29,197 nucleotides of DNA, from positions 1 through 29,197 of IMG/VR virus record IMGVR_UViG_3300032236_001853; one strand, written 5' to 3'. Made by a program: the position numbers and the translations under genes. Origin of the DNA: a virus. This document shows positions 18 through 20,489 of the stretch, piece by piece. The notes under the pieces are model-generated. The model did not search any database. It was not told where the DNA came from and was given only the letters and a program-made list of their open reading frames with translations. How positions within the stretch are numbered: position 1 is the stretch's first letter; every line of letters starts with the position of its first letter.

Positions 18-1145
18 TTAGAATGTGTATGTGCTGTTGCCACCAAGAACATTTGCACCGTGTGTTACGGAACCAAATGCGCCATCTGCAACTGAACCTG
101 CGACCTTAACGTTCTTTACAAGAACGTGTGCGTCGTAGTTTTCCATAGCTGCGCCAACACGAATAAAGAGGGTATACTCAATTGTATCCTTCTTTGGTTG
201 GAACAAGCGATAGACAGTAACATCACGCTTAATACCGATGATAAAGTTCTGTGGGAATGTCAAGTGGACATCTCCATGAAGACCTGCTGCACCTGAATAG
301 GTTCCTGCAAGGGTTTCGTCCATCAAAGGTACGTTGATTACAGGAATGCCGAAAGCGAAAGGAGTTGTAGTTCCTGGTCCGCCGTCGTTAGCTGCAACAT
401 CTCCACGGATAACGCCAGAAGCGATATCAAATGGATTTACTGAGCCAGCATTAGCTGTTAGGTTGTATAGGTAGTCTTGTACCAAGTTAGATCCTGTGAA
501 GAATCGGAGTTGGTTACGACGTTGCTTATACTTACGTGGTAGGGTCTTGATAGCTAGGTTGAATACCTGCTTGTCTAGACCTACACCTTGTGCGTCAACA
601 ACATGTGCGTTGTCGCTTGCAAGTTTGCGGAATCCCTTGAACGCTGAAAGCAGACCTGTGTCTGCACCTGTACCATTGATCAAAACATCCTCAATGTCAT
701 TTCCAGCTTGGGTAGCCATCAAACGTGCAATGTGGTCTTCCAAATCTGGACCCTCAAGGTTATCCTCAAGAGATTCAGATGAAAGTTCCCAATCAAGACG
801 AAGCTTGCGGGTTGTCAAAGAAATCTTTGAAAATGTTGCAGCAGCATTTGTGAATTGGTTGTTGCCTGCGTTTACATAATCACGAGGATTATCTTCGGAA
901 GCTACAGTCATAATTCTTTGTCCTACTGAAACACGATCAATTTCTGTTGTGTTTGAACGCATACGGATTGTACGAGCTGCCTTAGCAAGAATCGTAGCAT
1001 CCCACATGTAATCAAGGAAACGATTAGCTTGATCTGGGTATAGAAGACCAGTACCTGAAAGGGTACGACCATCACCTGAAAGATCAGAACCTGATGTTCC
1101 TAGATTTGTTGTATCAATTACTTTTTGTAGAAGTTCATTACTCAT
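18..1145 (-). CDS. Major capsid protein (HK97 fold)
   Basis: This 375-residue protein is the likely major capsid subunit that forms the icosahedral head. It lies directly downstream of portal and prohead protease genes, the usual place and order for an HK97-type capsid gene, and its size fits. The residues around 110-130 (LTTRKLRLDWELSSESLEDN) resemble the spine-helix entry of HK97-like capsids, and the C-terminal half has the alternating beta pattern of the P and A domains (FAFGIPVINVP, then DVTVYRLFQPKKDTIEYTLFIRVGAA). There is no long N-terminal delta domain, which agrees with a separate scaffold being encoded upstream. The start ATG is preceded by AAGGTGGTG about ten bases away. The fold is inferred from pattern and context, not from a search. 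Confidence 0.85.
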   Translation of the reverse strand: MSNELLQKVIDTTNLGTSGSDLSGDGRTLSGTGLLYPDQANRFLDYMWDATILAKAARTIRMRSNTTEIDRVSVGQRIMTVASEDNPRDYVNAGNNQFTNAAATFSKISLTTRKLRLDWELSSESLEDNLEGPDLEDHIARLMATQAGNDIEDVLINGTGADTGLLSAFKGFRKLASDNAHVVDAQGVGLDKQVFNLAIKTLPRKYKQRRNQLRFFTGSNLVQDYLYNLTANAGSVNPFDIASGVIRGDVAANDGGPGTTTPFAFGIPVINVPLMDETLAGTYSGAAGLHGDVHLTFPQNFIIGIKRDVTVYRLFQPKKDTIEYTLFIRVGAAMENYDAHVLVKNVKVAGSVADGAFGSVTHGANVLGGNSTYTF

Positions 1146-1176
1146 TTATTTATTTCACCACCTTATTTTGTTTAGT

Positions 1177-1686
1177 TTATTTAGTTAAGCTTTGTACACC
1201 GAGGAAGTGTCCTTGCCATATACTTTTTTGTATTTTTGTTTCCTCCAGTGATCCGTTAAGGTCGCTGGACTTCTTTACTGCCGTTGCAGATTCAAAACCC
1301 TTTAGGGCGTGATCAACGTACTCAATCTTTCCGTACATATCTGCTATGGTCTTTTTCATTTCTTCTTTGTGTTCTTCATGCTTTGCCTTAAGTTCATCAA
1401 CGGCTTTTGCCATTTCACGTCTGGTTTCCTCTACCATATTGTAAACATCTTGAACTGTTGCAGCATGTGTTGCATAATTCTTTTCAATAGCTTCATTGAT
1501 GGAGGTCTTAAGATCGGTTACCATTTTTGTGAAATCAAGGGTATCCTCAACCTCTGAAATAGTCACAGACTTCTCAATTACCTCACCAGCAGAATCTGCT
1601 ACCTCATCTACAGCAACAACTGTTTCTTCTGCTGCTGGAGCCACTTCAGTAGTTTCTACTACTTCTGTATTTGTTTCTTCTGTCAT
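1177..1686 (-). CDS. Internal in-frame scaffold protein
   Basis: The last 169 residues of the protease gene can be translated separately from the ATG at 1684-1686 (residue 289 of the long form). That ATG has an excellent Shine-Dalgarno, AAGGAGGT, seven bases upstream, one of the two best in the window and much better than that of the full-length gene. The product starts MTEETNTEVVETTEV, with an acidic low-complexity region, then a predicted coiled coil (REMAKAVDELKAKHEEHKEE) and a C-terminal segment that could bind capsid. This is the arrangement of lambda C/Nu3, where a scaffold is nested in the 3' end of the protease gene and made in excess. Separate expression is inferred from the ribosome site only. 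Confidence 0.7.
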   Translation of the reverse strand: MTEETNTEVVETTEVAPAAEETVVAVDEVADSAGEVIEKSVTISEVEDTLDFTKMVTDLKTSINEAIEKNYATHAATVQDVYNMVEETRREMAKAVDELKAKHEEHKEEMKKTIADMYGKIEYVDHALKGFESATAVKKSSDLNGSLEETKIQKSIWQGHFLGVQSLTK

Positions 1687-2550
1687 TTCATTACCTCCTT
1701 CATGCTTTTTAATCGCCGTACTTACGTCTATAGGCGAAACCTTTTTTTGTTTGTTTTGATCTGGGTACAAATTAATTGCAGACTTACTGTCAACTACATT
1801 GTGTGGAGCTGCAGTTTCTAGTGCTGCGTGATCTGGACCTGGAGCATCATCCTTTTTAAAATATGAATCAATTACTTTTTCAATTGTTTCAAATTTTTCT
1901 ACATCTGATTGTTCTACCCAACCAACGTTTGTCATTGGCTTATCGCATACTACACAATCTTTTGTAATATCAACAGATGTTGATGCAACCTCATCGGTAT
2001 TGCACCAAAATACATTTTCAGTAATTACGCCTTGCGCCATCTTTTGAATAGAAAAAATATTTGCGAGTGGATTTGCAGGAGAATCCACAAGACTAAGTTC
2101 GTGAAGATCATAATTGTGAATAACTCTCCTTGTTTCATCGCCATCGTCTGCCTTTTCCATTTTAGCATCAACGATATTACCACCAATTGAAAATCCTGTA
2201 TAAGTTCCATCTAGGCATTTTTCCCAAGCATCTTGGGCACCTTTTGAAATATAAGCGGTGACATAAACACCATTGTACTTTTTACCTGTAGTCTTATCAA
2301 AGAAAGAATCTTCTTTAAATGAAAGCATTTTACCTACTGCAGATGGTCCGTGCATTTCACGAATGTTTCCTCTGAAATTATCAAAAGCTCTCTTGCTTGC
2401 TTCGGCTGTTACGATATCTCCGTGACGATCAACATTATCTAATGATGCGAATCCAGACACAGTTCTTTTTTCCTTATCAACTTTCGCAATAGGAAAGGAT
2501 AGGGTCATTGATGATTCGCTGTTATTCCAGTACGTCTTTTGAATATCCAT
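1177..2550 (-). CDS. Prohead protease fused to scaffold (XkdF-like serine protease)
   Basis: A 457-residue protein with two parts. Residues 15-170 look like an XkdF/HK97-type prohead serine protease: VSGFASLDNVDRHGDIV near 31-47, a candidate catalytic His67 in REMHG, Ser121 in YTGFSIGG, and the family-typical DLHELSLVDSPANP at 148-161. Residues 289-457 are acidic, then helical and rich in Glu and Lys, as expected of a scaffold that is removed during maturation. Between them is a linker with Cys183, Cys199 and Cys202, which is unusual for this family. The gene lies between portal and capsid. An extended -10 (2561-2569) stands ten bases before the ATG and there is no Shine-Dalgarno, so its own mRNA would be nearly leaderless. 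Confidence 0.85.
   Translation of the reverse strand: MDIQKTYWNNSESSMTLSFPIAKVDKEKRTVSGFASLDNVDRHGDIVTAEASKRAFDNFRGNIREMHGPSAVGKMLSFKEDSFFDKTTGKKYNGVYVTAYISKGAQDAWEKCLDGTYTGFSIGGNIVDAKMEKADDGDETRRVIHNYDLHELSLVDSPANPLANIFSIQKMAQGVITENVFWCNTDEVASTSVDITKDCVVCDKPMTNVGWVEQSDVEKFETIEKVIDSYFKKDDAPGPDHAALETAAPHNVVDSKSAINLYPDQNKQKKVSPIDVSTAIKKHEGGNEMTEETNTEVVETTEVAPAAEETVVAVDEVADSAGEVIEKSVTISEVEDTLDFTKMVTDLKTSINEAIEKNYATHAATVQDVYNMVEETRREMAKAVDELKAKHEEHKEEMKKTIADMYGKIEYVDHALKGFESATAVKKSSDLNGSLEETKIQKSIWQGHFLGVQSLTK
1693..1700 (-). promoter_or_regulatory. Strong internal ribosome binding site
   Basis: The minus strand reads AAGGAGGT followed by seven bases and ATG, inside the protease reading frame. 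A full anti-SD match with optimal spacing in the middle of a gene is the main support for independent scaffold synthesis. Confidence 0.8.
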
Positions 2551-2560
2551 ATGTAAATAA

Positions 2561-2569
2561 ATAATACCA
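2561..2569 (-). promoter_or_regulatory. Extended -10 promoter for protease/scaffold/capsid
   Basis: The minus strand reads TGGTATTAT, ending ten bases before the protease ATG at 2550. No recognisable -35 lies 17 bases upstream. A start site six to eight bases downstream of the -10 leaves a leader of only a few bases. The same TGGTATTAT occurs at 4531-4539 in the same relation to a start codon. Confidence 0.55.
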
Positions 2570-2602
2570 ACTTTTATAATTAACTCATAATTTCAGTTAA
2601 TA

Positions 2603-4189
2603 TTATTCCTGTTGTCTTCCTTCTCCTTGAGGATTTCTTCCTCCCCCAGAACTATCTGGGGAATTTAAATTCCTATCTTTATCTCTTTGTCTTGTACCTT
2701 TTGCACTAACTATGGCTTCTTGTCCATCCTTAGCATTAAGATCTAATGGCTCATCCCCGCCTTCTATAGGTGCTCTTCCCATTCTTGAACGAACTTCATT
2801 TGGAAGGATTACCTTATTTACTAGGTATGCCGAGTCAATCTTTGCCTGAGTTTCTTCATCTGTAAGAGCCAACTCATTAAATCTAAGTGTGAATGCGTCT
2901 GTAAATTCAGCAATGATTTTGTTAAGCTTATATTCAAGCTCTTCTTGCATAGGGCGACATACCTGCTCTTTAAATGTCTTATCAGCATCTTTAGCATTTG
3001 CCAATGATACATCTGCAGGCATACCAATCTTTGAAATAGGAACTCTATGAGCAATAAGAATACGATCTCTATTTTCTACTGCATAGTTCTTGAATGATGA
3101 ATCTTGAATTCCCGCCTCAACTGGCTGCATGTTGAATTCAACACGAGCATTTTCTCCGTCTGATGGAAGTGGGATATAAAGTGTTCTGTGATTACGACCC
3201 TTTAAACCTGTTTGGAAAAATTCAAGAAGCTTACGTTCTGAATCAGCAGTAAGCTTAGCTCCCTTAACGGTAATAATATAGCGTGGAACTGCTTTGTTCT
3301 CAAAGTAATCTAAGTTAAATCTTTGTGCAAACTCATCTCCAGCTACGGCATTTTTTGCAGATAAAATATCTGGAATACCATAATATGTATTTGATGGAGT
3401 AAACTTTTTAAAGTGAATAACTTCGTTAGGCTGTGGATCTGTTCCAATTTGATCTGGAGTTTCTGTATCTCCAAAATTTCTAAAGAATGTGTAACGGTTA
3501 TAGACTACCTGTACAAAACCATCACGGTGACGGCGAATACGCATAGTAGTAACTGGAATATGTCCAATGTAGCCAATCTTTCCAGTTGATGTGCGACCAA
3601 CTTCAAGGTAAGCATTTCCTGTTGCTTCAAGGTCTGTGTATACCTTCTTCATGTTTTCTAAGAATGAGTCGTCTGAGTTAAGAGACTCAAGATAACTTGT
3701 TAATTCAACTTTAGCAGCTTCAATTTTTGTACGTAGTTTGTCAAGCTTAACAGGATTATCAATTACATCTTGAACCTTTTGTGTAACCTTAAATGTTTCT
3801 TCAAACTTATATCCTAGGCCAATTACGTTGGCAACTTTAGCATTTACCGCTGAATGATGATATGGAGATACATCGTACAGCTGTGAAAGATAAAGCATGT
3901 TGTATGGAGGTTGCACAATTTGAAATAGTGAATATCCTGTAAGATCAAGTGGATCAAGTTTCTTAGACTTAGCATCACCTTGGCCTGTAAATGCTTTTTC
4001 TAATCTTGCTGCATGTCTGCGAAAATTAGGTCCTAGCCCTTCTGACTTTCTAATCTCTCCCCATGTCTGTGCAAATGGGTCTTCAAATGTTTCTGAAGAT
4101 GATCCTGACATTCCAAAGTCTGCGTTAGATAATATCTGGACTTCACTGTCTTCGTCATCGTTCATGATTGTTACATTATGGTCTATCAT
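2603..4189 (-). CDS. Portal protein (PBSX/HK97-like)
   Basis: This 528-residue protein is the likely dodecameric portal at the head vertex that conducts DNA. It sits immediately upstream of protease and capsid, and its length is typical. Recognisable stretches include AVNAKVANVIGLGY near the N-terminal third, a core with EVIHFKKFTPSNTYYGIPDI, and near the C-terminal third HRVPISKIGMPADVSLANAK followed by QVCRPMQEELEYKLNKII, as in PBSX-type phage portals. The C-terminal tail is Gly/Gln/Arg rich and probably disordered. Its ATG overlaps the stop of the upstream gene as ATGA, so the two are probably translationally coupled. No terminase gene is next to it in this window. Confidence 0.85.
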   Translation of the reverse strand: MIDHNVTIMNDDEDSEVQILSNADFGMSGSSSETFEDPFAQTWGEIRKSEGLGPNFRRHAARLEKAFTGQGDAKSKKLDPLDLTGYSLFQIVQPPYNMLYLSQLYDVSPYHHSAVNAKVANVIGLGYKFEETFKVTQKVQDVIDNPVKLDKLRTKIEAAKVELTSYLESLNSDDSFLENMKKVYTDLEATGNAYLEVGRTSTGKIGYIGHIPVTTMRIRRHRDGFVQVVYNRYTFFRNFGDTETPDQIGTDPQPNEVIHFKKFTPSNTYYGIPDILSAKNAVAGDEFAQRFNLDYFENKAVPRYIITVKGAKLTADSERKLLEFFQTGLKGRNHRTLYIPLPSDGENARVEFNMQPVEAGIQDSSFKNYAVENRDRILIAHRVPISKIGMPADVSLANAKDADKTFKEQVCRPMQEELEYKLNKIIAEFTDAFTLRFNELALTDEETQAKIDSAYLVNKVILPNEVRSRMGRAPIEGGDEPLDLNAKDGQEAIVSAKGTRQRDKDRNLNSPDSSGGGRNPQGEGRQQE

Positions 4190-6554: not shown

Positions 6555-6563
6555 ATTATACCA
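6555..6563 (-). promoter_or_regulatory. Extended -10 promoter for LamG adhesin
   Basis: The minus strand reads TGGTATAAT, a perfect extended -10. It overlaps the stop codon of the upstream glycosyltransferase, whose TAA lies inside the TATAAT. The ATG at 6536 is 18 bases downstream, with AGGGGT between. No -35 match was seen. Confidence 0.6.
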
Positions 6564-7449
6564 TTTTATGATGTTTTAACGTAGATAAGTCTATATCGGC
6601 ATAATATTCAAAATCTTCTATTGTTCTTTTATCTCCCAGGGCAAATCTCCCGACTATTCTATTTGCAATAATATTTTTTATTTCAATGTTTGATTGATTA
6701 AATATATCATTTGTTTTATCTGGAAAATCTTGACCCGATAACCTTCTTTTATTTTTTTCATCTTCTCCATAGTATAGATGATATAAGCTTTGTTTTTCTG
6801 GTAACATTAAATCATATCCGTGGGTAAATAATCTTATTGCTGTTAAAAATTCTTCCCCCCAATTAAACATTTTAGGGTTTGGCTCTATTGTTGCTATATC
6901 TCCTGAAGAAAATATTTCTCCTCCTGATACCGCTCTTGTAAATATATTTTCAGGTTTGTTAGGCTTTGATGTTTGATGTAAAAAATAAAAATTTTCTTCT
7001 ATGTTATTTTGTTCAAAATCAGCATAAACAACTGAGGGATATTTGTCATATTTAACGTCTGATCCTTCATAATGATATCCTGAAGGATACGCTGTTAAAA
7101 CTGGATTACATCCTTCATTTGAGTACTTTTTATAAGTATTTATAAAATCAATATCCCAATTTTTTGAAAACCTTGTATGTGCATCTATTTGAAGATAGTA
7201 ATCTTCATCTTTATAAAAACTATTTGCAATAAACCTTCCATTGCCAACGCCTAGGCCTTCAGGAGCCATTGTCTTTTCTATTTTTATATTTTTTAAATTT
7301 GGTAAATTAATTTCATCTTTATTGTAATAGCACAAATGAATTCCAAAATTAACATTATTGTTATCAGAAATTTTATCCATACAATCTTGTATTGTTTTAG
7401 GTAACTCATAGTCATGGTATGCGGATATTTGTACAAATATACTTGACAT
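6556..7449 (-). CDS. GT60-family (Skp1-type GlcNAc) glycosyltransferase
   Basis: This 297-residue protein has the hallmarks of the GlcNAc transferase family first known from Dictyostelium Skp1 Gnt1 (CAZy GT60), which moves GlcNAc from UDP-GlcNAc to hydroxyproline. It shows the sequence DYYLQIDAHTRF with the metal-binding DxH (Asp89, His91), preceded by GVGNGRFIANSFY. Later it has NWGEEFLTAIRLFTHGYDLM followed by SLYHLYY, the family's GEE...THGYD...H.Y block. There is no signal peptide or membrane segment, so it should act in the host cytoplasm. It is flanked by adhesin genes and downstream of collagen-like fibres rich in Gly-Pro-Thr. Family membership is fairly firm; the acceptor is unknown, and fibre residues are the obvious candidates. 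Confidence 0.85.
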   Translation of the reverse strand: MSSIFVQISAYHDYELPKTIQDCMDKISDNNNVNFGIHLCYYNKDEINLPNLKNIKIEKTMAPEGLGVGNGRFIANSFYKDEDYYLQIDAHTRFSKNWDIDFINTYKKYSNEGCNPVLTAYPSGYHYEGSDVKYDKYPSVVYADFEQNNIEENFYFLHQTSKPNKPENIFTRAVSGGEIFSSGDIATIEPNPKMFNWGEEFLTAIRLFTHGYDLMLPEKQSLYHLYYGEDEKNKRRLSGQDFPDKTNDIFNQSNIEIKNIIANRIVGRFALGDKRTIEDFEYYADIDLSTLKHHKMV

Positions 7450-7683
7450 CTACCATTTACCAATTGGGCATTTAGAGTTTTCTAATTTTGTTTTTACTGA
7501 CATAAAACAACCACATTTTTTACATTGTTTTGTTAAATTTATAAATTCTGGGCAAGACTTACAAATATTATATCTTTGATTTGCTATATCTTCATCAACA
7601 TATTTAGTATTTGTATTAATTAGGTCCCAAGGCCTTGCTTCTCCATTTGCCTCTTTCCACTTTTGCCATGGCGTTTTTGACAT
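7450..7683 (-). CDS. Small zinc-ribbon phage protein
   Basis: A 77-residue protein with a clear four-cysteine-plus ribbon in its second half: CKSC near residue 41, then CKKCGCF near 53, and a last cysteine in SKCPIGKW at the C-terminus. Similar small proteins ending in CPxGKW are, to my recollection, common beside structural and glycosyltransferase genes in environmental phages, with no assigned function. It has a weak ribosome site (ATAGG) and is separated by six bases from the upstream gene. Its stop codon abuts the start of the GT60 gene, so the two are probably co-expressed. Confidence 0.75.
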   Translation of the reverse strand: MSKTPWQKWKEANGEARPWDLINTNTKYVDEDIANQRYNICKSCPEFINLTKQCKKCGCFMSVKTKLENSKCPIGKW

Positions 7684-7689: not shown

Positions 7690-8013
7690 CTATTCTATTA
7701 AATCAAAGACTATTTGTGGGTTACTTAAAAGAGCTGCAAAAATCATCTGATTACTATCTTCTTTTGAAAATATAAATTTTTGTTCTTTTCCAGTATTTGG
7801 ACTTACCATTTTTATTCTATTACTATTTAAATATTCTTCTGGAAGATCATTATCAACCTCGTTTGTAATATCTGTAATTATAGGGTTTGACTCATAAATC
7901 TCTTCTATATCAATTTCTTTTTCAGTAATTGGAACTTTTGTTTCTGGATCCAACTTAATTACATGAAATGGTATTGTATCTTGATCAACAATAAGTTTAT
8001 AGCTTTTTATCAT
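7690..8013 (-). CDS. Hypothetical acidic protein
   Basis: A 107-residue acidic protein that I do not recognise. It has a beta-strand start (SYKLIVDQDTIPFHVIKLD), a Glu/Asp/Ile-rich middle, and a C-terminal helix with QMIFAALLSNPQIVFDLIE. There is no signal peptide or membrane segment. It is the first gene behind the only complete TTGACA-17-TATAAT promoter seen in the window, with TTGGAG five bases before its ATG. It should therefore be well expressed and leads a unit with the zinc-ribbon and GT60 genes. A chaperone or assembly role is possible but is only a guess from position. Confidence 0.7.
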   Translation of the reverse strand: MIKSYKLIVDQDTIPFHVIKLDPETKVPITEKEIDIEEIYESNPIITDITNEVDNDLPEEYLNSNRIKMVSPNTGKEQKFIFSKEDSNQMIFAALLSNPQIVFDLIE

Positions 8014-8030: not shown

Positions 8031-8059
8031 ATTATATCGTTATGTATAGATTATGTCAA
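8031..8059 (-). promoter_or_regulatory. Consensus sigma-70-type promoter
   Basis: The minus strand reads TTGACA (8054-8059), a 17-base spacer, then TATAAT (8031-8036), a perfect match to the housekeeping consensus. The -35 overlaps the stop codon of the Ig-like gene. The downstream ATG at 8013 has GGAG before it. Confidence 0.8.
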
Positions 8060-8928
8060 TAACATGAGCCAGAGCAGTGTATAGTTCCCAGATGTCCGTA
8101 TCCTAGGAAATCGTACCACATACAAGATTGTCCTGTATTTGGATCACAAGGCGCTGCAGTTGTAGTGGTTGTAGTAGTAGTTGTAGTGGTGGTAGTTGGT
8201 GGCGCCTGATAAATTTCAGATACGCTAAAATTAGCACCGTAACCACTTAAAGGAATTCCAAATGCGCTAGACCATGGATTTGAACCGTTTATTGGTTGAA
8301 TTAATCCGCCTAGTGTTCCAGTAGCTCCGTTTGGTAAAGTAAATGTGGCGCTTGTTACATTTCCAAGGTAACCTTGAGTAAATCCAACATTTGGACCAGA
8401 ATACTGATAATAATATCCTGTTACACCAGCAGATGGTTGCCAATATACGTATACAACATCAGATGATTGTCTATATGCTCCCAATCCTGCGATTGGCGCT
8501 GGATATACTAATGATATTGAAGAATCTGCAGATGTATTTCCTCTTGAATTTGTAGCCTTTACAACACATTTAATATTATAACCAACTAATGTTGGATCTG
8601 ACAATGTATATGAATTTGTTGTAGATCCAGATAAAATTGTCCAACCGCCTGAATACGCTTGTTTATACCATTGATAAGTATATGTTAAGGATGCTCCAGT
8701 CCATGTTCCAGTATCTACTGTTCCTACACTTCCTATTGCTGCCCCACTTGTTCCGCTCCAAGTTATTGCGGGTGCAACTGTATTTGTTGGAAATTCAGGA
8801 TAAAATTGTTTCCAGTCTGAACCATCAAAAACAAAAGCATTTGAAGAATCAACCCATGAGGTTCCATCAAAATATTTAATTTTTTTTTCAGGATTAAAGT
8901 TTGATCCATCATTTATGCTTATAGTCAT
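8056..8928 (-). CDS. Ig/FnIII-like fibre protein with poly-Thr linker
   Basis: A 290-residue surface protein. Residues 15-45 have a short FDGSDWKQFYP-type module common at phage fibre N-termini. Residues 50-140 look like a bacterial Ig-like domain (TYQWYKQ..., then YTLSDPTLVGYNIKCVVKATNSRGN). The next 95 or so residues are probably FnIII-like (VVYVYWQPSAGVTGYYYQYSG). Then come PP, thirteen consecutive threonines and AAP, and a small tail with four cysteines (CDPNTGQSC, HCSGSC). The Thr codons are mixed (ACT, ACC, ACA), so the run is kept at protein level. Thr-rich linkers are frequent O-glycosylation sites in other systems. The ATG lacks a clear Shine-Dalgarno and lies five bases after the previous stop. 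Confidence 0.75.
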   Translation of the reverse strand: MTISINDGSNFNPEKKIKYFDGTSWVDSSNAFVFDGSDWKQFYPEFPTNTVAPAITWSGTSGAAIGSVGTVDTGTWTGASLTYTYQWYKQAYSGGWTILSGSTTNSYTLSDPTLVGYNIKCVVKATNSRGNTSADSSISLVYPAPIAGLGAYRQSSDVVYVYWQPSAGVTGYYYQYSGPNVGFTQGYLGNVTSATFTLPNGATGTLGGLIQPINGSNPWSSAFGIPLSGYGANFSVSEIYQAPPTTTTTTTTTTTTTAAPCDPNTGQSCMWYDFLGYGHLGTIHCSGSCY

Positions 8929-8933: not shown

Positions 8934-9296
8934 TTAGTATTGAATATAGATATCTCCCGCTGCGGTACCTGATGGCGGGGTAGGTGATGTTCCATAAAAT
9001 ATTTTATTTGCAGTACTTGCTGTTCCATTTACATAAACATTTGTTGGAGCAGATGTTCCTGTAGCTCCCGTTGGTCCCGTTGGCCCTGTTGCACCATTTA
9101 AACCATTTGCTCCTGTTGGGCCAGGAATATTGCTGTCCGCACCTGTTGGACCCGTTGGTCCTTTTAATCCTTGAGGACCTGTTGGTCCTAGAGCAGTTGT
9201 GACGTTATCCCAAGCAGAGCCATTCCATTGCCATGTATAATTTCCAAAAACATACTGGTCATTTAAGTTGGGGGAAGATGGAAAATTTATAGGCAT
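8934..9296 (-). CDS. Short collagen-like fibre protein
   Basis: A 120-residue protein with an N-terminal module ([23 protein letters not shown]) of the kind that precedes collagen-like repeats in phage fibres. About twelve mostly unbroken Gly-X-Y triplets of the GPTGPQG and GATGPTG type follow. It ends with a short Ser/Thr/Pro-rich domain ([19 protein letters not shown]). Collagen-like repeats in phage proteins form trimeric stalks. The gene starts one base after the stop of the 30-residue gene upstream, whose last codons supply GAGGAG as ribosome site. Confidence 0.8.
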
Positions 9297-9415: not shown

Positions 9416-10798
9416 CTATATAGAGACTTTAGAGACCGAATCTATTGCAATGCCACTATATACAATGGTTGAGCCATTTGAAAAATAAAAAAATGAATAT
9501 CCTGGGTCTGATGAAGTATGTGCTCCCGCCGAATCAGTTAAGCTTGAATTATTTATCACAAAAGTAAAATGTGCTCCTGCTGGATCAACCCCTACAGTAC
9601 TGGCAATTCCAGGTATTGATTTTGAAGAAACATTATGTTGGTTTGATGGAGAGAACTTAATAATTCCTCCAGGTTCACCACTGCCCGATATTTTATATAA
9701 ATTACTGGTTAAATATAAATCATTATATTTGTCTATTGCAGTTCCCAATTGACCATTTTGATCAAAATTATCTGGACTTGAATATTTTACTCCTACTGAT
9801 TTTCCCCATAAATAATTTCCATTTGTATCAAATTTAATAACTGATGGATATCCAAAGGCAAACGGAAGATATGTAACAGTTATTCCTGTATCACAATTAT
9901 AGTGGTAATAAACATATATATTATCTTCAGAATCAACTTTTATACTGCTTATCCCGCTAGATTTGTTAGAATTTAATGGAGTTACTGTTATGCTTTTTTG
10001 CCACTGAATACTTCCATTTGAATCATACTTTATTAAAACTCCAATAGTTGGATTAGTTGTGGTTACTGGCCCTATCCATCCCGCCACAAAAATGTTATTA
10101 TTGCTATCAGAACAAATTGATAAAGGTGTAAAATTAGATATATCTCTTTGCCATAATAAATTTGCACTTTGATCATATTTAGCTAATGTTGCAACTGAAC
10201 TTACTGTTGCTCCCGCTATTATTGGATTATTATTTTTATCTAAACTCATGGTTACTTGATCTGCTCTTGCGCCTAGGTCTAGTTTTGCTTGACCAATTAC
10301 TTTTGCATTTCCATCTAAATCCCATTTATTTATATATATTTCATTTCTATTTCTTCCAGATGTCCAAAAAAAATCATTATTTTTAGATACATTTAAAGAA
10401 GAAGGGCTCATTATAGCTGGAGATGCATATCTAAAATATCTGTCATAAACATAATTTCCATTTGTATCAATTTTTAATACTGTATGAACAGTGTCAGTTC
10501 CTGTATTATTAAATTGAGCTACATAAATATTTTCACTTGCATCTATATCCATGCCTAATGCTGCGCCATATCCATATGAGTGAAGTGATTTTTCCCATAC
10601 AAAATTAAAATTTTTATCAAGCTTAATTAATGAATTATGGCTTGAGGTTTCTCCTTGAGGTTGATATGTATTTAATAAATAAATATTTCCTGTATTATTT
10701 GATACCGAAATTAAATAGCTTGCATACCCATATGCTCTAAACAAATACTCGGCAAAATTTTGTTCTTTTGAAGAAGTATTAACTCCTATTGGAAGCAT
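9416..10798 (-). CDS. Beta-propeller (SBBP/NHL-like) tail protein
   Basis: A 460-residue protein made of repeats of about 50-60 residues, each with a strand pattern such as DIDASENIYVAQFNN or DSNNNIFVAGWIG followed by IKYDSNGSIQWQKS. This is the signature of SBBP/NHL-like beta-propellers, so a single propeller covering most of the chain is likely. The preferred start is the ATG at 10796-10798, which overlaps the stop of the upstream collagen gene as TAATG. A nine-codon extension to a TTG at 10825 is also open but would lie inside the upstream gene. It probably forms a receptor-binding or structural head on the fibre encoded just upstream. Confidence 0.75.
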   Translation of the reverse strand: MLPIGVNTSSKEQNFAEYLFRAYGYASYLISVSNNTGNIYLLNTYQPQGETSSHNSLIKLDKNFNFVWEKSLHSYGYGAALGMDIDASENIYVAQFNNTGTDTVHTVLKIDTNGNYVYDRYFRYASPAIMSPSSLNVSKNNDFFWTSGRNRNEIYINKWDLDGNAKVIGQAKLDLGARADQVTMSLDKNNNPIIAGATVSSVATLAKYDQSANLLWQRDISNFTPLSICSDSNNNIFVAGWIGPVTTTNPTIGVLIKYDSNGSIQWQKSITVTPLNSNKSSGISSIKVDSEDNIYVYYHYNCDTGITVTYLPFAFGYPSVIKFDTNGNYLWGKSVGVKYSSPDNFDQNGQLGTAIDKYNDLYLTSNLYKISGSGEPGGIIKFSPSNQHNVSSKSIPGIASTVGVDPAGAHFTFVINNSSLTDSAGAHTSSDPGYSFFYFSNGSTIVYSGIAIDSVSKVSI

Positions 10799-12492
10799 TA
10801 AATTATATCCCCAGAAACATACCAAGTGCTACTTGATTTTTTAACTGCTATTGCAGCACTATATTGACTTCTAATTTTAGGGGTAGCGCCATTTGTTCCT
10901 GATCCCGCCGAATATACTGTAACACCACTTGCGCCTTGAATTGTTGTTTGACCTGTTCCAATTTGCCAGATAGTAATAGATGAACCATTTGCTATTGTTG
11001 TAGTATCTGCGGGAAGGGTAACAGTATTTCCAGATCCAACATTCATCCATATGATTGCATTTACATCAGAAGATTGCAATGAGTATGATGATGTTTGAGT
11101 ATTGTCTGAATATATTGCTGCACCTGTTGGTCCAGTGACTCCCGTTGTTCCTGTTGGTCCAGTTACTGATGGACCTGTAGGCCCAGTTGACCCTGTAGGA
11201 CCTGTAGAACCTATTGGTCCTGTAGGACCTGTTGGTCCTGTTACTGATGGGCCTGTTGATCCTACTGAGCCTTGTGCGCCTGTTGGACCCGTTACTGATG
11301 CACCTGTTGGACCTACTGCTCCAACTGCACCGTCAAGATTTACTGTCCAAGAAGCATATGTTCCTGTTCCAGTACTTTTTGTAATTGTAAATATTAATTG
11401 ACCATTAGATGAGTTGTAAGATGAAACATCACCAACAACATAATGAGTTGCGTCATACGCAACAATAATGCTTTGTGCTGTTGAATAACCAAGTCCTGTT
11501 CCAATTGTAATTGTTTGGCTTCCGCTGCTTGCAATTGCAAATGATGTTGAAGATGTTGTTTGATAAGAGTCTCCTCTTGGCCCCGTAGAACCTGTTGGCC
11601 CTGTAGAACCTGTTGGCCCCGTAGAACCTGTTGGGCCTGTAACTCCAATTGGTCCTGTAGGTCCTGTAATTGATGGACCTGTTGCTCCTATTGAACCTGT
11701 TGGACCTGTAACCCCTGTTGGTCCTGCTGGTCCTAGGTATCCGCTTGCTGAAAGCTGAACCCATTGACTGCTATCAGCATCTGTAGTCCATGTATACTGG
11801 ATACCATTTGTAGAGTTTACCCATCTATCTCCAACTACTGGGCTTGTTGGTGCTGTGTCTGAAAAAGTATAATTTGTTGAAATTGCTCCTGTAGGACCTG
11901 TTGATCCTGTTGGGCCAGTTGCTCCCACGTTTCCTGTTGATCCTGTTGGACCAGTCGCTCCTATTTGTCCGTTTGATCCATTTGTACCTGCTGCTCCAGT
12001 AGCACCAGTTGGTCCTGTTTGACCTATTGATCCTTGTGGGCCTTGAATTAAACCTGCGTTAATCCATGCAGATGTTGTTGTGGACCAAACATAAAGATAT
12101 CCATTTATTAAATATCCATCGCCTGAAGAACCTGTTGGGTGTGCTGTTTGTAGATCAGATAAAGTGGAATAAGTTCCTAAAATTGTTACGCCAGTGCCCT
12201 GTGGGCCTGTTGCACCCGTTGGACCTGTAGAGCCTATTGGTCCTGTAGAACCTGTTGGTCCTGTTACTGATGGGCCTGTTGCTCCTACTGAGCCTTGTGC
12301 ACCTGTTGGTCCTGTTACTGATGCACCTGTTGGCCCTGTTACTGATGGACCTGTTGGACCTGTAGCACCTGCTGGACCTGGATGTGCGTCAAGATATGCA
12401 TCCACATCTTGAGCTAAATATCTTAAATCACGGGGAACATCAGGAGTATCAGAATATTGAGGATAATGAAATCCTTTACCAGTAGTAGTCAT
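10798..12492 (-). CDS. Collagen-like fibre with shuffled beta domains
   Basis: A 564-residue fibre. After a short N-terminal anchor ([19 protein letters not shown]) it alternates Gly-X-Y blocks rich in [12 protein letters not shown] and SVTGPTG with globular modules: a [20 protein letters not shown]...[10 protein letters not shown] module near residues 100-145 (also in the protein at 23317-23958), a [20 protein letters not shown] module, and a roughly 90-residue beta domain starting [18 protein letters not shown], which recurs in the fibres at 17274 and 18804. The C-terminal domain ([17 protein letters not shown]) is a common phage fibre cap. The upstream sequence is a -10 and AGGGGG. Thr is very frequent in the Y position of triplets. 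Confidence 0.85.
11520..11579 (+). repeat. 60-bp repeat shared with 18146-18205
   Basis: The 60 bases here are identical to 18146-18205 in another fibre gene, 6.6 kb away. They encode the beginning of the shared beta domain ([12 protein letters not shown] and following residues). Identity without synonymous differences indicates recent exchange or duplication. Outside this block the two genes have diverged. Confidence 0.85.
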
Positions 12493-12502
12493 TATACCCC
12501 CT

Positions 12503-12511
12503 AGTATATCA
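12503..12511 (-). promoter_or_regulatory. Extended -10 promoter before collagen fibre
   Basis: The minus strand reads TGATATACT, then ten bases including AGGGGG, then the ATG at 12492. The geometry again allows an almost leaderless transcript. The AGGGGG may instead act as a ribosome site for read-through mRNA. Confidence 0.45.
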
Positions 12512-12513
12512 AA

Positions 12514-14622
12514 TTATTGATTTAAGGCATTATTAAAAAAGATTAAATTATTAGATAGTCTTTCATCTGCTGGATTTATATCACAAGCGATTTTACCTTG
12601 TTCATATGCCTCTTGATATCTGCTTAAATTATACAACGCTATTGCATATAAATCATGTGGCTTTTCATTCCAAGCATATTCTTCACATAAATATTCTAAA
12701 GGCTTTACTGTAATATCTAGTGTTTGCTTGCATATATCTGCACATTCCTGCCATCTACTATTTTGATAATAGTATTCTGCTAGATCTACTAGTGCTTCCC
12801 GCCTTCCTGGTGCTTGAGCAATTGACTTCTTAAGCCATTCCTCTGCTTCTGCTGGATTACACTTAGCGATATATCTCATAGATGTAGCACGTTCTGGTGG
12901 CCAAGTTGCTGTTGGCAAAGTAAGATGCTTTTTTAATTGTTGCTCTGCTTCTTGATAATGTCCATGAAACATTAGCTCTCTTCCATAATAAAATACGTTT
13001 CTATCATTTTGAGGATCTTCTTCAACAGACATTTTTAACAAAGGAAGATATTGAGATCTACTTTTTGTGTTATCTGGATGATGATGAGTTTCTAGGCCAT
13101 CTATCCACGTTTGCTTTTCTTCAATTCCATATACATATAAACATTCATGTACGGGATGCTTCCATCTATAATTTTTTCTTGAGTGAATGTGGTCATATGA
13201 AAATTCTAGCCCTGGAGTTCCATCTTCTTTCCAACTCCAAACATGCTTATATCTTGGACGGGTAATTCCTTGTGCCCAAGCATTTTCTAGTGGCTCCCGC
13301 CAGTTTGGAGTAATTACTTCATCCATGTCTAGCGAAATACACATATCAATATCTTTTGGGAGTGCTGCTAGTGCAGCATTACGAGCATCATCAAATCTCC
13401 ATGGGACAACATTTACAGTTACGACATTAATTCCTAATTCTTCTGCAAGCTTTACAGTATTGTCTGTTGATCCCGTATCAGCAATAAGCAAGTAATCTGC
13501 ATCCTTTGCAGATTCATACCATCTTTTTACAAATTGTTCTTCATTTAGTGCAATTGTGTATATTGCTACCTTCATAGTTTTCTTCATCTTTTCTTTGTAA
13601 AGTTCAAGATTATTTTGCAATCTTGAATCGGCGGGATTCATAGATAACGCTTTACTTCCATATTCTACTGCATCCCTATATAATTCTAAATTATAGCATG
13701 ATAATGAAGCAAGATCATATGGCTTATTTCCCCATGCTTCTTCTCTATATGTAAAGCCATCTCTTTTGTGATTTACATTTATACATTTTTTAGCATATTG
13801 TAAACATTTATCCCAGTCTTGTTTTTCATAAAATAGCTCTGCATAGAATAAGGTATTCTCCTTTTCTTCGCTATCTTGTAGGCTAATATCAAACCATTTA
13901 ATGGCATTCTCTAGGTCACCTAGTGATTGGTAATTTCTTGCTATATAGCTTGATGTATAAGATTTTGTAAGGCTTGTATTATCTTCAGCATTATAACTTT
14001 CTATTTTATATTTAATGGAGTTTTCAAGGTCCCCCAAAGTTTCATATTCTATTGAAAGAAAGTAAAATGTTTTCCAGTCTTTTTCTTCTTTTATTTTTTT
14101 TAAAAGTAGGGGTAGATAAGATTTTCTATCTTTATTTATATCCTGTTTTTCATCTAAAAAAATGGTGTCAATATAGACTTCATTTTGAGGCATATCCCAT
14201 TTAAGATTTTCATGAACTACTCCGAACCATTGGCAATTATTTCTATTATGTATTTTGCTATGCCATTGCCATGGGTTGCTATTGTTCCTATATTTATGGT
14301 AATAAACTGTAATTTCTGGTTTATAGGATTTTTCTAGTTCTTCCCGCCAATTATCATTTAATGACTCATCTAAGTCAAGAGATACGCAAACATCTATATC
14401 TGCAGGTATTGAATTTAAGGCAATGTTTCTTGCCTCATCAAATCTCCAAGGATTAACATTTATTTCAATTACATTTATACCGAGTTGGCGGGCTTTTTCA
14501 ACAGTCCCATCATTTGATCCTGTATCTGCAATTAAAACATAATCAGCTAATTTGGCGGAAGCAAACCATTTGTCAAGAAACTTTTCTTCATTCTTGACAA
14601 TAGTATATACAGCTATTTTCAT
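12514..14622 (-). CDS. Tandem-duplicated GT2-TPR glycosyltransferase
   Basis: A 702-residue protein consisting of two homologous halves that join at Met350. Each half starts with a GT-A/GT2 domain: MKIAVYTIVKNEE...LIADTGSNDGT in the first and MKVAIYTIALNEE...LIADTGSTDNT in the second, with DxD motifs in SLDLDE (81-86) and SLDMDE (about 430-435). Each continues with NPWRFDEARN / VPWRFDDARN and ends in helical TPR-like repeats (DLENAIKWFDISL and others) finishing with a NPADxRLxNNL motif. The same GT2 plus TPR plan is known from protein-modifying enzymes such as SunS. Both halves keep the DxD, so both may be active. No strong ribosome site precedes Met350. The substrate is unknown; phage fibres are plausible. 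Confidence 0.85.
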   Translation of the reverse strand: MKIAVYTIVKNEEKFLDKWFASAKLADYVLIADTGSNDGTVEKARQLGINVIEINVNPWRFDEARNIALNSIPADIDVCVSLDLDESLNDNWREELEKSYKPEITVYYHKYRNNSNPWQWHSKIHNRNNCQWFGVVHENLKWDMPQNEVYIDTIFLDEKQDINKDRKSYLPLLLKKIKEEKDWKTFYFLSIEYETLGDLENSIKYKIESYNAEDNTSLTKSYTSSYIARNYQSLGDLENAIKWFDISLQDSEEKENTLFYAELFYEKQDWDKCLQYAKKCINVNHKRDGFTYREEAWGNKPYDLASLSCYNLELYRDAVEYGSKALSMNPADSRLQNNLELYKEKMKKTMKVAIYTIALNEEQFVKRWYESAKDADYLLIADTGSTDNTVKLAEELGINVVTVNVVPWRFDDARNAALAALPKDIDMCISLDMDEVITPNWREPLENAWAQGITRPRYKHVWSWKEDGTPGLEFSYDHIHSRKNYRWKHPVHECLYVYGIEEKQTWIDGLETHHHPDNTKSRSQYLPLLKMSVEEDPQNDRNVFYYGRELMFHGHYQEAEQQLKKHLTLPTATWPPERATSMRYIAKCNPAEAEEWLKKSIAQAPGRREALVDLAEYYYQNSRWQECADICKQTLDITVKPLEYLCEEYAWNEKPHDLYAIALYNLSRYQEAYEQGKIACDINPADERLSNNLIFFNNALNQ

Positions 14623-14625
14623 ATA

Positions 14626-15303
14626 TTAAATTTCTGTAGGTACGTGTGTCCAGTCAATTTTTAAAATTTTATGATGATTAACCATAACATCTGGATAACA
14701 ATAAATAGGAATTTGTTGTTCGTAGGCCTGAATACACCAAGAAATATCTTCTCCTAATGTTTCTGTAAAAATAGAACCATCTTCTAATTTTCTATCTTGA
14801 TGGTAATGCCCAAACCAAGGTCTATGCATTGATTCAAATACTCCACTTTTAACAGCAATAAATCCAAAACCACAACTTCTTATTTCAAATTCTTTAGACA
14901 TTCCTTTAATTATGTGGGCTGGCATTCCTCCAGGTTTTTCTACGGCATGAACGCTTGTAGTTGTTGCGTCACCCAAAAGATAAACTCCTGTTGCAATTTG
15001 ATGTTCTGAATTATATAGTTTAAAAAAATCATCAACTGTCCATGAAATATCTGAGTCAATCCAAAATATTTTATTGTATGTTACGGTATCAGATAAAGGA
15101 CCTTTATCTTGAGGGTTTAATAAAAGCCCACCGCCAGAAATAGTTAATTCTCTTGCATTTCCCACTAAAGAGGATCTTCCATTTAACCATTTATAAGAAA
15201 TATTTTTTTTATTTAATTCAATTAAAGTATCTACCAAACTTGCTACATAGTCTGCTTCTAAATTTTCTCCTGGGGTAGCTATCAATACATCGTAATGTTC
15301 CAT
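14626..15303 (-). CDS. GT-A fold glycosyltransferase
   Basis: A 225-residue putative nucleotide-sugar transferase. It has LIATPGENLEADYVASL at the N-terminus, RSSLVGNAREL near 43-53, a DxD in FWIDSDISW (Asp83, Asp85), a GGMPAHIIKG loop, and ETLGEDISWC (Glu185, Asp186), the usual place of the general base in GT-A enzymes. VNHHK near 208-212 is a typical late metal-ligand histidine. It lacks a signal peptide or membrane segment. It has a promoter (15340-15348) and a good ribosome site (AAAGGA), and is followed three bases later by the duplicated GT2-TPR gene, so the two form a glycosylation operon. Confidence 0.8.
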   Translation of the reverse strand: MEHYDVLIATPGENLEADYVASLVDTLIELNKKNISYKWLNGRSSLVGNARELTISGGGLLLNPQDKGPLSDTVTYNKIFWIDSDISWTVDDFFKLYNSEHQIATGVYLLGDATTTSVHAVEKPGGMPAHIIKGMSKEFEIRSCGFGFIAVKSGVFESMHRPWFGHYHQDRKLEDGSIFTETLGEDISWCIQAYEQQIPIYCYPDVMVNHHKILKIDWTHVPTEI

Positions 15304-15339
15304 TATTTTCCTTTGTTAGTGTTTAAACAATATAAATCT

Positions 15340-15348
15340 ATAATAGCA
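15340..15348 (-). promoter_or_regulatory. Extended -10 promoter of glycosyltransferase operon
   Basis: The minus strand reads TGCTATTAT, 36 bases before the ATG at 15303. Its TG overlaps the end of a perfect inverted repeat (15347-15380), which would cover the spacer and the -35 position. Confidence 0.55.
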
Positions 15349-15380
15349 CATATGGGGCTGTTTTATCAACCCCATATGTG
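15347..15380. repeat. Inverted repeat at promoter, operator or attenuator
   Basis: Two perfect 11-base arms, CACATATGGGG at 15347-15357 and CCCCATATGTG at 15370-15380, are separated by 12 bases that can pair further (TTG/CAG with one wobble on the minus strand, loop ATAAAA). No U-run follows on the minus strand, so a simple intrinsic terminator for the gene ending at 15400 is doubtful. Overlap with the -10 suggests an operator or an RNA stability hairpin. Confidence 0.65.
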
Positions 15381-15399
15381 TATATCAATATTTAATTAA

Positions 15400-15699
15400 T
15401 TATTTTGATAAAATCTCAGTTGCCAAAGATTCTCTTTGTGCTGGAGACATTGTATTTAACCAATCACTTCTTTGTTCTTGAGTTAAAAGTGGATCTATTT
15501 CTTCTGGAATATAAAATCCATCAAAAGGTCCTGGAGGATTGGTTGCTTGATCAATAAAAGATTTTGCCCAATCTTCGGCTTCTTTTTTATTAGCCCATTG
15601 GACATTTGATCCATTATGTGGCTGATAAATAAATGGAACATCTGATCCATCTTCAAAAATTCTTACTGCATATGTATTTTCTTCTATTTCATATCTCAT
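15400..15699 (-). CDS. Hypothetical fibre-associated protein
   Basis: A 99-residue protein with an N-terminal beta part (RYEIEENTYAVRIFEDGSDVPF), then WANKKEAEDWAKSFIDQA, and a helical C-terminus with LLTQEQRSDWLNTMSPAQRESL. I do not recognise the family with certainty. The size, the position right after fibre genes and the AEDWAKSF-type helix recall small fibre assembly or chaperone proteins. It starts in a TAATG overlap with the upstream gene; the ribosome site GGAGT lies within that gene's last codons (GVEL). It is the last gene before the inverted repeat. Confidence 0.65.
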   Translation of the reverse strand: MRYEIEENTYAVRIFEDGSDVPFIYQPHNGSNVQWANKKEAEDWAKSFIDQATNPPGPFDGFYIPEEIDPLLTQEQRSDWLNTMSPAQRESLATEILSK

Positions 15700-16025
15700 T
15701 ATAGTTCAACTCCAAAAATTGTAATTATATATTCAGGTGCATTATCTGTATTCAATGTCATAAAATCGCCAGATTGCATTGAGAATGGTCCTTTTATGGT
15801 AACTGTATTTGAATCTGATGGGTAGCCTCTATAGATTCTATCCGCATCACTTACACTATTTCCATTTTGAGTAATTGATATGCTTGCTGGTCCGTCATAA
15901 GTTGTAGTAACTATATTGATTGCCCTTACTACAGCTTGAACTCCACTTGGTACTGTATATAAAGTTGTATTGCTTGCATGTCCGCTACTTTTAACTTGTG
16001 CTAGTATTTTATATGTTGTTGTCAT
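15699..16025 (-). CDS. Small beta-sandwich virion protein
   Basis: A 108-residue beta-rich protein, TTTYKILAQVKSSGHASNTT at the start and GPFSMQSGDFMTLNTDNAPE followed by YIITIFGVEL at the end. It is the compact form of the domain that is split in the next protein upstream (16025-17269): the N-terminal 65 residues and the C-terminal 40 residues of that protein align with the two ends of this one. Both end in GVEL and TAATG. The phage virion location is inferred from the neighbours; the function is probably structural. Confidence 0.7.
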   Translation of the reverse strand: MTTTYKILAQVKSSGHASNTTLYTVPSGVQAVVRAINIVTTTYDGPASISITQNGNSVSDADRIYRGYPSDSNTVTIKGPFSMQSGDFMTLNTDNAPEYIITIFGVEL

Positions 16026-17269
16026 TATAGTTCTACTCCATTCACTGAAAAACTTAATCCAGTATCGCCTATTACGGTAATTGTATTATTTGATCCTAAT
16101 GTAATTCCTGGCCGTAAAATATCGGTATAGTCATTACCTATTGTGTGATTACGATATAAATAATTTGATGTTGAGCTAAATCCTGGAACACCACTTATGG
16201 ATATGTATGCAATTCCATTAAAGGCTGAAAGAGCTGTCCAAGTTATCGCATCTGTTGAAGTTTTCCAATAGTATGCATCTGATTTGTAAAAATTTCCATT
16301 TGCAAAAAAAGGAGGTTGATAATAAGTATAAATATTTTGTGAACTATCTATTGTCCAACTTACTGCATCTGTTGAATGAGCAACTTTTTGTGGATATACA
16401 GCCGTATAAACTCCAAGATAGGTATTATTTCCAAAAGCATATTCTTGAATAGTGCTACTACTAGAGATGGTTGTAAAATTCACTCCATCAACAGTTGTTT
16501 GTGTAGTTCCATTTCCATTATAAAGCCAAAGTACACCATTGTTGATATTTAAAGCAGAAGCATAAACTTGACTATTTGATGTCCAAGTTATACCATCGGA
16601 ACTACGCATGAGTGCTCCAGCGCCCTCATTTGCAAAATACAACCCTGTGCTTGGTACATATTGAAGTACAGAGTTTCCGCTTACATATGCATTATATGAA
16701 GGAGTACCATAAACTACTATACTATTTGCTGTCCAAGTTACTGCATCTGTTGAGGTCCACATGTTTGCATTATAATTATTCCACCACAAATATCTTTGAT
16801 ATACAACATCATATTGTATATTACCTCCAGATGGATATCCTAACCCAGTAACTTTAGATAATATAGTAACATTATTTCCAGATTTGGATGCAGTAGCAAC
16901 AGTATTACCACCATATATAAAATATGTATTATTTAATTTTTTGGTTTTGTATGTTGAATTTGTAAAAGAAAAACCATTAGTGTTTACACTTGCTGTTGTC
17001 CAATTTAATCCATCTGTTCCAGTATAAACGTTCAGAGTGCTATTTCCAAACCACACGGCGGTTGCATCATTTGTTGCCACAAAATCACTATCCACATGTG
17101 TTGCATTATATACGTTAATAGTATATGAATGAGAACTTCCTGCATCAGTATTATTTACTACAATACCATTGATTATTGCATTAACATTAGTTCCTGATGT
17201 GTAAAGTACTTTTTCTGTTGTAGTATCAGTAGTAACTACTTTACCTAAGTTTTTGTATGTATTTGTCAT
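16025..17269 (-). CDS. Beta-domain protein with inserted propeller
   Basis: A 414-residue protein whose ends (about 1-65 and 370-414) form the same beta domain as the 108-residue protein next door. About 300 residues are inserted between them, built from repeats with the signature TSTDAVTWT / RSSDGITWT / TDGLNWT / HSTDAVSWT, each followed by strands such as NNTYLGVYT. These resemble BNR/Asp-box-like beta-propeller repeats, a fold often used to bind glycans. There is no sign of sialidase catalytic residues that I can identify. The gene starts from ATG with GGAG upstream, overlapping the end of the collagen gene region. The likely role is an adhesin. Confidence 0.75.
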   Translation of the reverse strand: MTNTYKNLGKVVTTDTTTEKVLYTSGTNVNAIINGIVVNNTDAGSSHSYTINVYNATHVDSDFVATNDATAVWFGNSTLNVYTGTDGLNWTTASVNTNGFSFTNSTYKTKKLNNTYFIYGGNTVATASKSGNNVTILSKVTGLGYPSGGNIQYDVVYQRYLWWNNYNANMWTSTDAVTWTANSIVVYGTPSYNAYVSGNSVLQYVPSTGLYFANEGAGALMRSSDGITWTSNSQVYASALNINNGVLWLYNGNGTTQTTVDGVNFTTISSSSTIQEYAFGNNTYLGVYTAVYPQKVAHSTDAVSWTIDSSQNIYTYYQPPFFANGNFYKSDAYYWKTSTDAITWTALSAFNGIAYISISGVPGFSSTSNYLYRNHTIGNDYTDILRPGITLGSNNTITVIGDTGLSFSVNGVEL

Positions 17270-17273
17270 TTAT

Positions 17274-18743
17274 TTATGCTCCTAATCCTACAAAGAATAT
17301 TGGGTCTATCCCGCCTGAACTTGAACTACCTGCTGGTCCTGTGGCACCTGCAGCACCTGTTGGGCCTGTGGCTCCGTTTGAACCTGCTGAACCTGCAGCA
17401 CCTGTTGGGCCTGTGGCTCCGTTTGAACCTGCTGAACCTGCAGCACCTGTTGGGCCTGTTGGTCCACTACCAGAACCGCCTGAACCAGCTGGACCTGTTG
17501 GTCCTACTGCACCTTGTGCACCTGTTGGGCCTGTTACTGAATTACCTTGTGCGCCTGTTGGTCCTGTGGCTCCGTTTGAACCTGCTGAACCTGCAGCACC
17601 TGTTGGACCTGTGGCCCCATTGTTTCCTGCAGAACCTGTTGGCCCTGTAGCCCCGTTTGAACCTGCTGAACCTGCAGCACCTGTTGGGCCTGTTACTGAA
17701 TTACCTTGTGCGCCTGTTGGGCCTGTTGCACCTGTGTTACCTACAGAACCTTGTACACCTTGAATACCTTGAGCACCTGTTGGACCCGTTGCACCTGTAT
17801 TACCAGTTGAACCTTGTGCGCCTGTTGGTCCTGTGGCTCCGTTTGAACCATTAGAACCTGCTGGACCCGTGGCTCCTACTGAACCATTAGCTCCTGTTGG
17901 ACCTGTAGCCCCATTGTTTCCTGCAGCACCTGTTGGGCCAACTGCTCCAACTGCACCATCAAGATTTACTGTCCAGGCAGCGTGTGTTCCTGTTCCTGCA
18001 CTTGCTTTAATTGTAAATGCTAAAGCACCATTTGAAGAATTATAAGATGTAACTTCACCAATTACATAATTATTTACATCAAAAGCAACAATAACATTTT
18101 GTGCTATTGAGTATGCTAATCCTGTACCAATTGTAATTGTTTGAGTTCCGCTGCTTGCAATTGCAAATGATGTTGAAGATGTTGTTTGATAAGAGTCTCC
18201 TCTTGATCCTGTAGCACCTGTTGCACCAGTTGCACCAGTTGGACCTTGTGGCCCCGTAGCACCTACTGCACCATTGGAACCTGTTGGACCCGTTGCGCCT
18301 TGTGGTCCTGTTGCGCCAGTATTACCTGTTGCACCTGTTGGTCCTGTTGCGCCTGTATTACCTACAGAACCTTGTACACCTTGAATACCTTGAGCACCTG
18401 TTGGGCCTGTTGCGCCTTTATTACCTGTTGCACCTGTTGGTCCTGTTGCAAATTGAAGTTGTGCTGTTGGAACATATCCATTTCCATCAAGCTCTGCTAC
18501 TCCACCTGGTGCACCTTTTTCTGAAAAAGCAATATAATCTGTACCTGCTACTGGCAGGTAAGTTGAAATATCTGAAGGGAGAACTGAAGCATATGACAAA
18601 TCTGTCCAAGCAGTGTTACCTGTACCAATTTTAAATTTTCCAGAGTCTGTTTCAAATCCCACCTCACCTTGTGATAAAGTTGGATTTACAGAAGTCCATT
18701 GACTTGCTGAATCTCTTCTTACTTGAATTTTACTAGTTGTCAT
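17274..18743 (-). CDS. Collagen-like fibre with Mtd-like N-terminus
   Basis: A 489-residue fibre. The N-terminal 60 residues ([20 protein letters not shown] and [20 protein letters not shown]) match the module found at the start of Bordetella phage Mtd-like and many environmental phage fibres. [17 protein letters not shown] follows. Then come long Gly-X-Y blocks with the shared beta domain [18 protein letters not shown] near residues 180-265, and further Gly-X-Y repeats almost to the end, with [14 protein letters not shown] as the tail. The last third contains near-perfect DNA repeats. Ribosome site AAGGAGA and an extended -10 (18762-18770) lie upstream. Confidence 0.85.
17351..17440 (+). repeat. 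Two tandem 45-bp collagen-coding repeats
   Basis: Units 17351-17395 and 17396-17440 appear identical, and a partial third copy follows. Each encodes five Gly-X-Y triplets, so unit number can change without frameshift. Parts of the unit recur near 17570-17690. Confidence 0.85.
18146..18205 (+). repeat. 60-bp repeat shared with 11520-11579
   Basis: This block is identical to 11520-11579 and encodes the start of the same beta domain in a different fibre. The third copy of the domain, in the fibre at 18804-20480, is diverged at DNA level. Confidence 0.85.
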
Positions 18744-18761
18744 TTTATTTCTCCTTGTTGA

Positions 18762-20480: not shown

Positions 20481-20489
20481 TATTTACTC

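Follow-up and report, generated by a model that had tools for sequence, protein, structure and literature searches.

In the bacteriophage analysed here, the gene for a glycosyltransferase from a family chiefly known in protists travels with the gene for a surface protein that carries a mucin-like run of threonines, which suggests that the phage probably coats its own fibre with sugar, as some parasites coat themselves. Computational analysis places the enzyme in family GT60 (Pfam PF11397), and its interpretation as a mucin-type threonine O-glycosyltransferase acting on the stalk of the phage's own fibre is the reading that we moderately favour. A broader proposal, for which we see an even chance, is that phages carry a cassette dedicated to mucin-type O-glycosylation, in which a poly-Thr stalk, a "phage mucin", is paired with its own GT60 and which lies in an exchangeable surface-modification slot.

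In the proposed mechanism, GT60 would be a retaining, metal-dependent polypeptide O-HexNAc transferase of the GT-A fold, most likely using UDP-GlcNAc as the donor and forming an alpha linkage. Its targets would be threonines in the stalk tract of the fibre-like protein encoded upstream (8056-8928), and other Thr-rich virion segments may be modified as well. Glycosylation would make the tract a mucin-like stalk that is stiff, hydrophilic and resistant to proteases and that presents a small Cys-rich C-terminal tip, and three other glycosyltransferase-like genes (12514-14622, 14626-15303 and 26413-27414) could lengthen the glycan from the first sugar. Computation establishes the family, the fold, the conserved motifs, the cassette, the promoter-like site and the linkage of GT60 to Thr tracts, from which the donor sugar, the acceptor residue, a place in the virion and the benefit to the phage are inferred.

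The window, that is, the whole stretch of DNA analysed, is an incomplete virus record of 29,197 bases. It comes from a tailed phage, with genes for the major capsid protein, head protease and portal at 18-4189. With a capsid protein that shares about 57% identity with those of Streptomyces phages and has IMG/VR contigs as its nearest relatives, the phage is likely to have an actinobacterial host. The metagenome series of these contigs, which we take to be freshwater, suggests a freshwater origin. In three capsid-kin records (those of L039, L042 and L041; G019, G022 and G021), PF13640 2OG-Fe(II) oxygenases are clustered in groups of five to eight. The features of the window that are relevant to the argument are as follows.

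6556..7449, minus strand: GT60/PF11397 glycosyltransferase gene, an intact ORF of 297 aa, with profile matches and conserved motifs
GT60 product: D89-x-H91 metal motif, G198-E199-E200 loop and H224 as candidate C-terminal metal His, from motifs and conservation
7450..7683, minus strand: DUF6171 zinc ribbon, 77 aa (PF19668, E 4e-7)
7690..8013, minus strand: gene for a 107-aa protein with a C-terminal LLSNPQ motif
8031..8059, minus strand: sigma-70 promoter-like site TTGACA-N17-TATAAT, 12/12 consensus, between the Thr-tract and 107-aa genes
8056..8928, minus strand: Thr-tract gene for a 290-aa fibre-like protein with a Cys-rich C-terminal tip, the proposed acceptor
8158..8196, minus strand: 13-Thr tract, residues 245-257 of the 8056-8928 protein
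12514-14622: glycosyltransferase-like gene, 702 aa, two GT2-type domains and TPR-like repeats (phrog_13126, E 3e-186)
14626-15303: glycosyltransferase-like gene (Pfam/PHROGs)
26413-27414: glycosyltransferase-like gene (Pfam/PHROGs)

Family assignment and predicted fold of the phage GT60

The first-pass annotation assigned the 6556-7449 product to GT60 on the basis of its DAHTRF and GEEFLTAIRLFTHGYD blocks, and the HMM search that it called for bears out this assignment: PF11397 is the sole Pfam family matched (score 126.5 bits, cut-off 21, E 2.2e-36), and the PHROGs match is to the glycosyltransferase family phrog_24687 (E 1e-25). A search of 14 control genomes with the PF11397 profile gave no match. 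In viral contigs, a scan with the single protein detected no GT60 relative, whereas alignment-based scans did. In a conservation alignment of 91 sequences comprising viral and bacterial relatives, the two blocks coincide with the best-conserved columns of the family. Four residues (H91, F94, W98 and G211) are invariant in this alignment, a further set (D89, G198, E199, E200, R206, T209, P217 and H224) is conserved in at least 90% of the sequences, and H224 is a candidate for the C-terminal metal His. More distant phage GT60s (L121, L131, L138, L143 and L151) occur as tandem gene pairs of approximately 415-450 aa each, with a C-terminal extension.

The AlphaFold2 model of the phage enzyme (pLDDT 94.3, pTM 0.93) adopts a GT-A fold with DxH in place of DxD and a conserved C-terminal His. 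Replacement of DxD by DxH is typical of GT27 and GT60, both of which carry out polypeptide Ser/Thr O-glycosylation, and in GT27 the metal is coordinated by a C-terminal His (PMC7185993). When the model was searched against the PDB, all 50 of the 50 matches listed were polypeptide GalNAc-transferase structures (GT27), the best of them with E 6.5e-10 and a match probability of 1.00; sequence identity to these structures was 11-15%, and the query-normalised TM-scores were 0.52-0.60. Sequence searches of the PDB found no solved GT60 relative. Membership of the phage enzyme in GT27 itself was considered and rejected: PF11397 was the only family matched, a ricin-type lectin domain is absent, and the likeness is one of fold only.

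The minus-strand cassette and the slot downstream of DUF6171

Read 5' to 3' on the minus strand, the cassette consists of the Thr-tract gene (8928-8056), the 107-aa gene (8013-7690), DUF6171 (7683-7450) and GT60 (7449-6556), with the ATG of GT60 immediately after the stop codon of the zinc ribbon. The Thr-tract gene, which lies directly upstream and whose PPT13AAP segment the first-pass annotation overlooked, encodes a product in which APPT13AAP spans residues 242-260 and the tail, CDPNTGQSCMWYDFLGYGHLGTIHCSGSCY, is rich in Cys; residues 51-149 of this product resemble a stretch of an fn3-containing fibre (L090). The codons of the 13-Thr tract are mixed (ACT/ACA/ACC). The structure model of the 107-aa protein is poor (pLDDT 56), and in most relatives a 68-149-aa relative of this protein occupies the same place in the cassette. 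The gene order, namely the Thr-tract gene, the "LSNP" protein (68-149 aa), DUF6171 and GT60, is repeated in relatives (e.g. L090, L092, L097, L102 and L104), sometimes with a radical-SAM or DUF7164 gene inserted between DUF6171 and GT60.

Promoter-like sites matching 11 of the 12 consensus bases occur at the same position in L115, L090, L088, L390, L431 and L120. Overall, such a site was found in 8 of 20 regions of this kind, compared with 0.013 expected per region, and the site of L087 falls within GT60; among DUF6171 loci, the site is not specific to those with GT60. The 107-aa, DUF6171 and GT60 genes form a compact operon, which, judging by the consensus match, probably has its own sigma-70-type promoter.

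The slot downstream of DUF6171 is an exchangeable surface-modification island. In other phages (L377, L389, L395, L399, L411, L413 and L422), the place of GT60 is taken by PF13640 2OG-Fe(II) oxygenases, radical SAM/SPASM proteins, GDP-mannose dehydratase-like sugar-nucleotide epimerases or O-fucosyltransferase-like proteins, the last represented by a weak O-FucT match (L377:3726-4754, E 0.004).

Threonine tracts near GT60 genes and the proposed acceptor

Runs of at least eight threonines after a proline are common in phage proteins (L255-L374), mostly with no GT60 nearby. When 80 loci of each kind were compared, tracts of at least five threonines turned up in 28 of the phage GT60 loci, in 3 of the capsid-kin loci and in 1 of those around bacterial GT60s. 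The GT60 of the window belongs to a phage-only clade of 24 GT60s (SH-aLRT 100) in a quick tree that has long branches outside this clade. A Thr-rich, mucin-like candidate acceptor, as expected for a mucin-type pp-alpha-GlcNAc transferase, is present in the window as APPT13AAP, and a gene rich in Thr (10 or more T per 20 residues) lies upstream in 19 of the 20 clade members whose upstream DNA was assessable; the corresponding count for bacterial GT60 loci is 2 of 59. Nearly all Thr-tract proteins of the clade have a Cys-rich C terminus, and their long tracts are written in mixed Thr codons, which indicates that the run is maintained at the protein level and not as a DNA repeat.

The linkage of GT60 to Thr-tract fibre genes is specific to the phage clade, and together with polypeptide transferases as the nearest fold it argues against a non-protein target, which could be either a glycan on the host surface, altered to mask a receptor or to exclude superinfecting phages, or a glycan that another glycosyltransferase of the window starts and GT60 extends. 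We regard such a target as unlikely, although PF11397 homologues occur widely in bacterial genomes that lack such a tract, the window contains three more glycosyltransferase-like genes, and the more distant jumbo phage GT60s have other gene contexts.

The association was also analysed independently in phage loci for which DUF6171, and neither GT60 nor the tract, served as the anchor; three scans with the best 80 hits each provided 82 unique loci with enough flank. Thr tracts and GT60 were associated in this set (14 loci with both, 11 with the tract alone, 9 with GT60 alone and 48 with neither; OR 6.8, p=3.9e-4), the seed sequences of which were partly taken from loci carrying both GT60 and the tract and may bias it towards such loci. 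The p-value was 0.0019 after dereplication and ranged from 0.03 to 0.0002 when the labels were permuted inside anchor-similarity clusters; the pair test on the DUF6171 tree was based on just 2 supported pairs. Inside a clade, the linkage is partly shared descent. Several observations weigh against the tract as the acceptor: 9 of the 23 GT60-bearing DUF6171 loci have no tract at the chosen threshold, the close relative L087 lacks both the tract and the cassette, and GT60 is found in the fetched flank of 2 of 101 P-T8 loci, so the presence of a tract by itself does not predict GT60.

Phage poly-Thr tracts without GT60 are common and many other modification genes reside in the island, as would be expected if the two genes merely shared a ride in a hypervariable tail-fibre island and the poly-Thr segment were a plain flexible linker. 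This explanation appears quite improbable to us, as the association persists through dereplication and within-cluster permutation, while two other island features show no association with GT60.

The first-pass annotation had compared the enzyme with Skp1 Gnt1 and asked whether it modifies hydroxyproline, with nearby collagen-like proteins as the context, or has moved to Thr or Ser; the GT60 assignment and the shift to Thr/Ser emerge as the better-supported parts of that reading, and the hydroxyproline and collagen framings are not supported. A Skp1 Gnt1-like hydroxyproline GlcNAc-transferase acting downstream of a prolyl hydroxylase seems very unlikely. Gnt1 and the phage enzyme share a CAZy family (PMC6939170), prolines flank the Thr tract, and a PF13640 2OG-Fe(II) oxygenase is located between DUF6171 and GT60 in L411, L400, L392 and L451. 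However, the search for a prolyl hydroxylase detected no PF13640 gene within the 29,197 bases of this fragment, and Pfam scans of the examined ORFs of the record gave no other hydroxylase family; as the record is incomplete, such an enzyme could still be supplied by the host or by a distant part of the phage genome. Across the 82 DUF6171 loci, the association between 2OG-Fe(II) oxygenases and GT60 is, if anything, negative (OR 0.4, p=0.08), and several Thr runs have no adjacent proline (the first runs of L115 and L431).

The collagen-like proteins themselves are real: the window encodes five of them, rich in GPT triplets, the nearest at 8934-9296 and the rest in 10798-23958. In some bacterial exosporium collagens, Thr (or Ser) is reported to be glycosylated within collagen-like GPT repeats. 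Such repeats of the phage fibres, instead of the poly-Thr tract, might be the main target of GT60; as they also put Thr next to Pro, one enzyme could serve both. Among the ten closest GT60 relatives (L085-L093 and L115, 44-59% identity), however, a PF01391 search of the whole records found collagen in L088 and L115 and not in the other eight (L085, L086, L087 and L089-L093). Collagen was present inside the fetched locus of 4 of the 24 window-clade members, and no consistent linkage with GT60 was seen in the 82 DUF6171 loci (OR 0.82, p=0.8). We consider GPT repeats as the main target to be a decidedly unlikely alternative.

The proposed mucin-type modification of the fibre stalk compared with known systems

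If the phage GT60 does glycosylate its own poly-Thr stalk, then HexNAc transfer to Thr-rich stalks by a GT-A enzyme, as in protists and animals, works in bacterial viruses with a co-encoded acceptor. Biochemists and structural biologists would gain a GT60 system that is soluble and simple, the runs of poly-Thr seen in certain phage fibres would be explained, and phage decoration of the receptor-binding machinery would become directly testable.

Both phage virion glycosylation in mycobacteriophages and mucin-type GT60 activity in protists are already known; a literature search that covered few subscription papers found no publication joining the two. Mycobacteriophages carry glycans on their own structural proteins (Freeman et al. 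2023, cited in PMC12619734). According to the excerpted text of PMC12619734, these are attached to the C-termini of capsid and tail-tube subunits, whereas the proposed site in the phage described here is a poly-Thr fibre stalk; the same excerpt does not mention GT60, poly-Thr stalks or this cassette alongside mycobacteriophage glycosylation.

Skp1 Gnt1 of Dictyostelium and Toxoplasma has the PF11397/GT60 family and the catalytic motifs in common with the phage enzyme, but requires hydroxyproline on Skp1, whereas no hydroxylase was found in the scans of the phage record. The GT27 ppGalNAc-transferases provide the best solved fold match, with DxH and the metal His, and their polypeptide Thr/Ser acceptors resemble those proposed for the phage GT60; they differ in having no detectable sequence match to it, in a lectin domain that the phage enzyme lacks, and in using UDP-GalNAc as the donor.

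GT60 is not a single hydroxyproline family: its TcOGNT-2/DdGnt2-type members initiate mucin-type alpha-GlcNAc-Thr glycosylation (PMC3769586, PMC6939170, PMC7185993). The T. cruzi pp-alpha-GlcNAcT, for which TcOGNT-2 is the gene identified, belongs to GT60 (PMC6939170), and its activity was assayed on KPPTTTTTTTTKPP with UDP-GlcNAc and Mn2+ (PMC3769586). Trypanosoma cruzi TcOGNT-2 and Dictyostelium DdGnt2 are eukaryotic Golgi enzymes, whereas the phage enzyme is a predicted 297-aa product of a phage operon. They have the family and DxH in common with the phage protein, which is likewise a predicted retaining GT-A enzyme; the peptide used for the T. cruzi activity, KPPT8KPP (with Mn2+ and UDP-GlcNAc; PMC3769586), is close to the APPT13AAP of the phage stalk.
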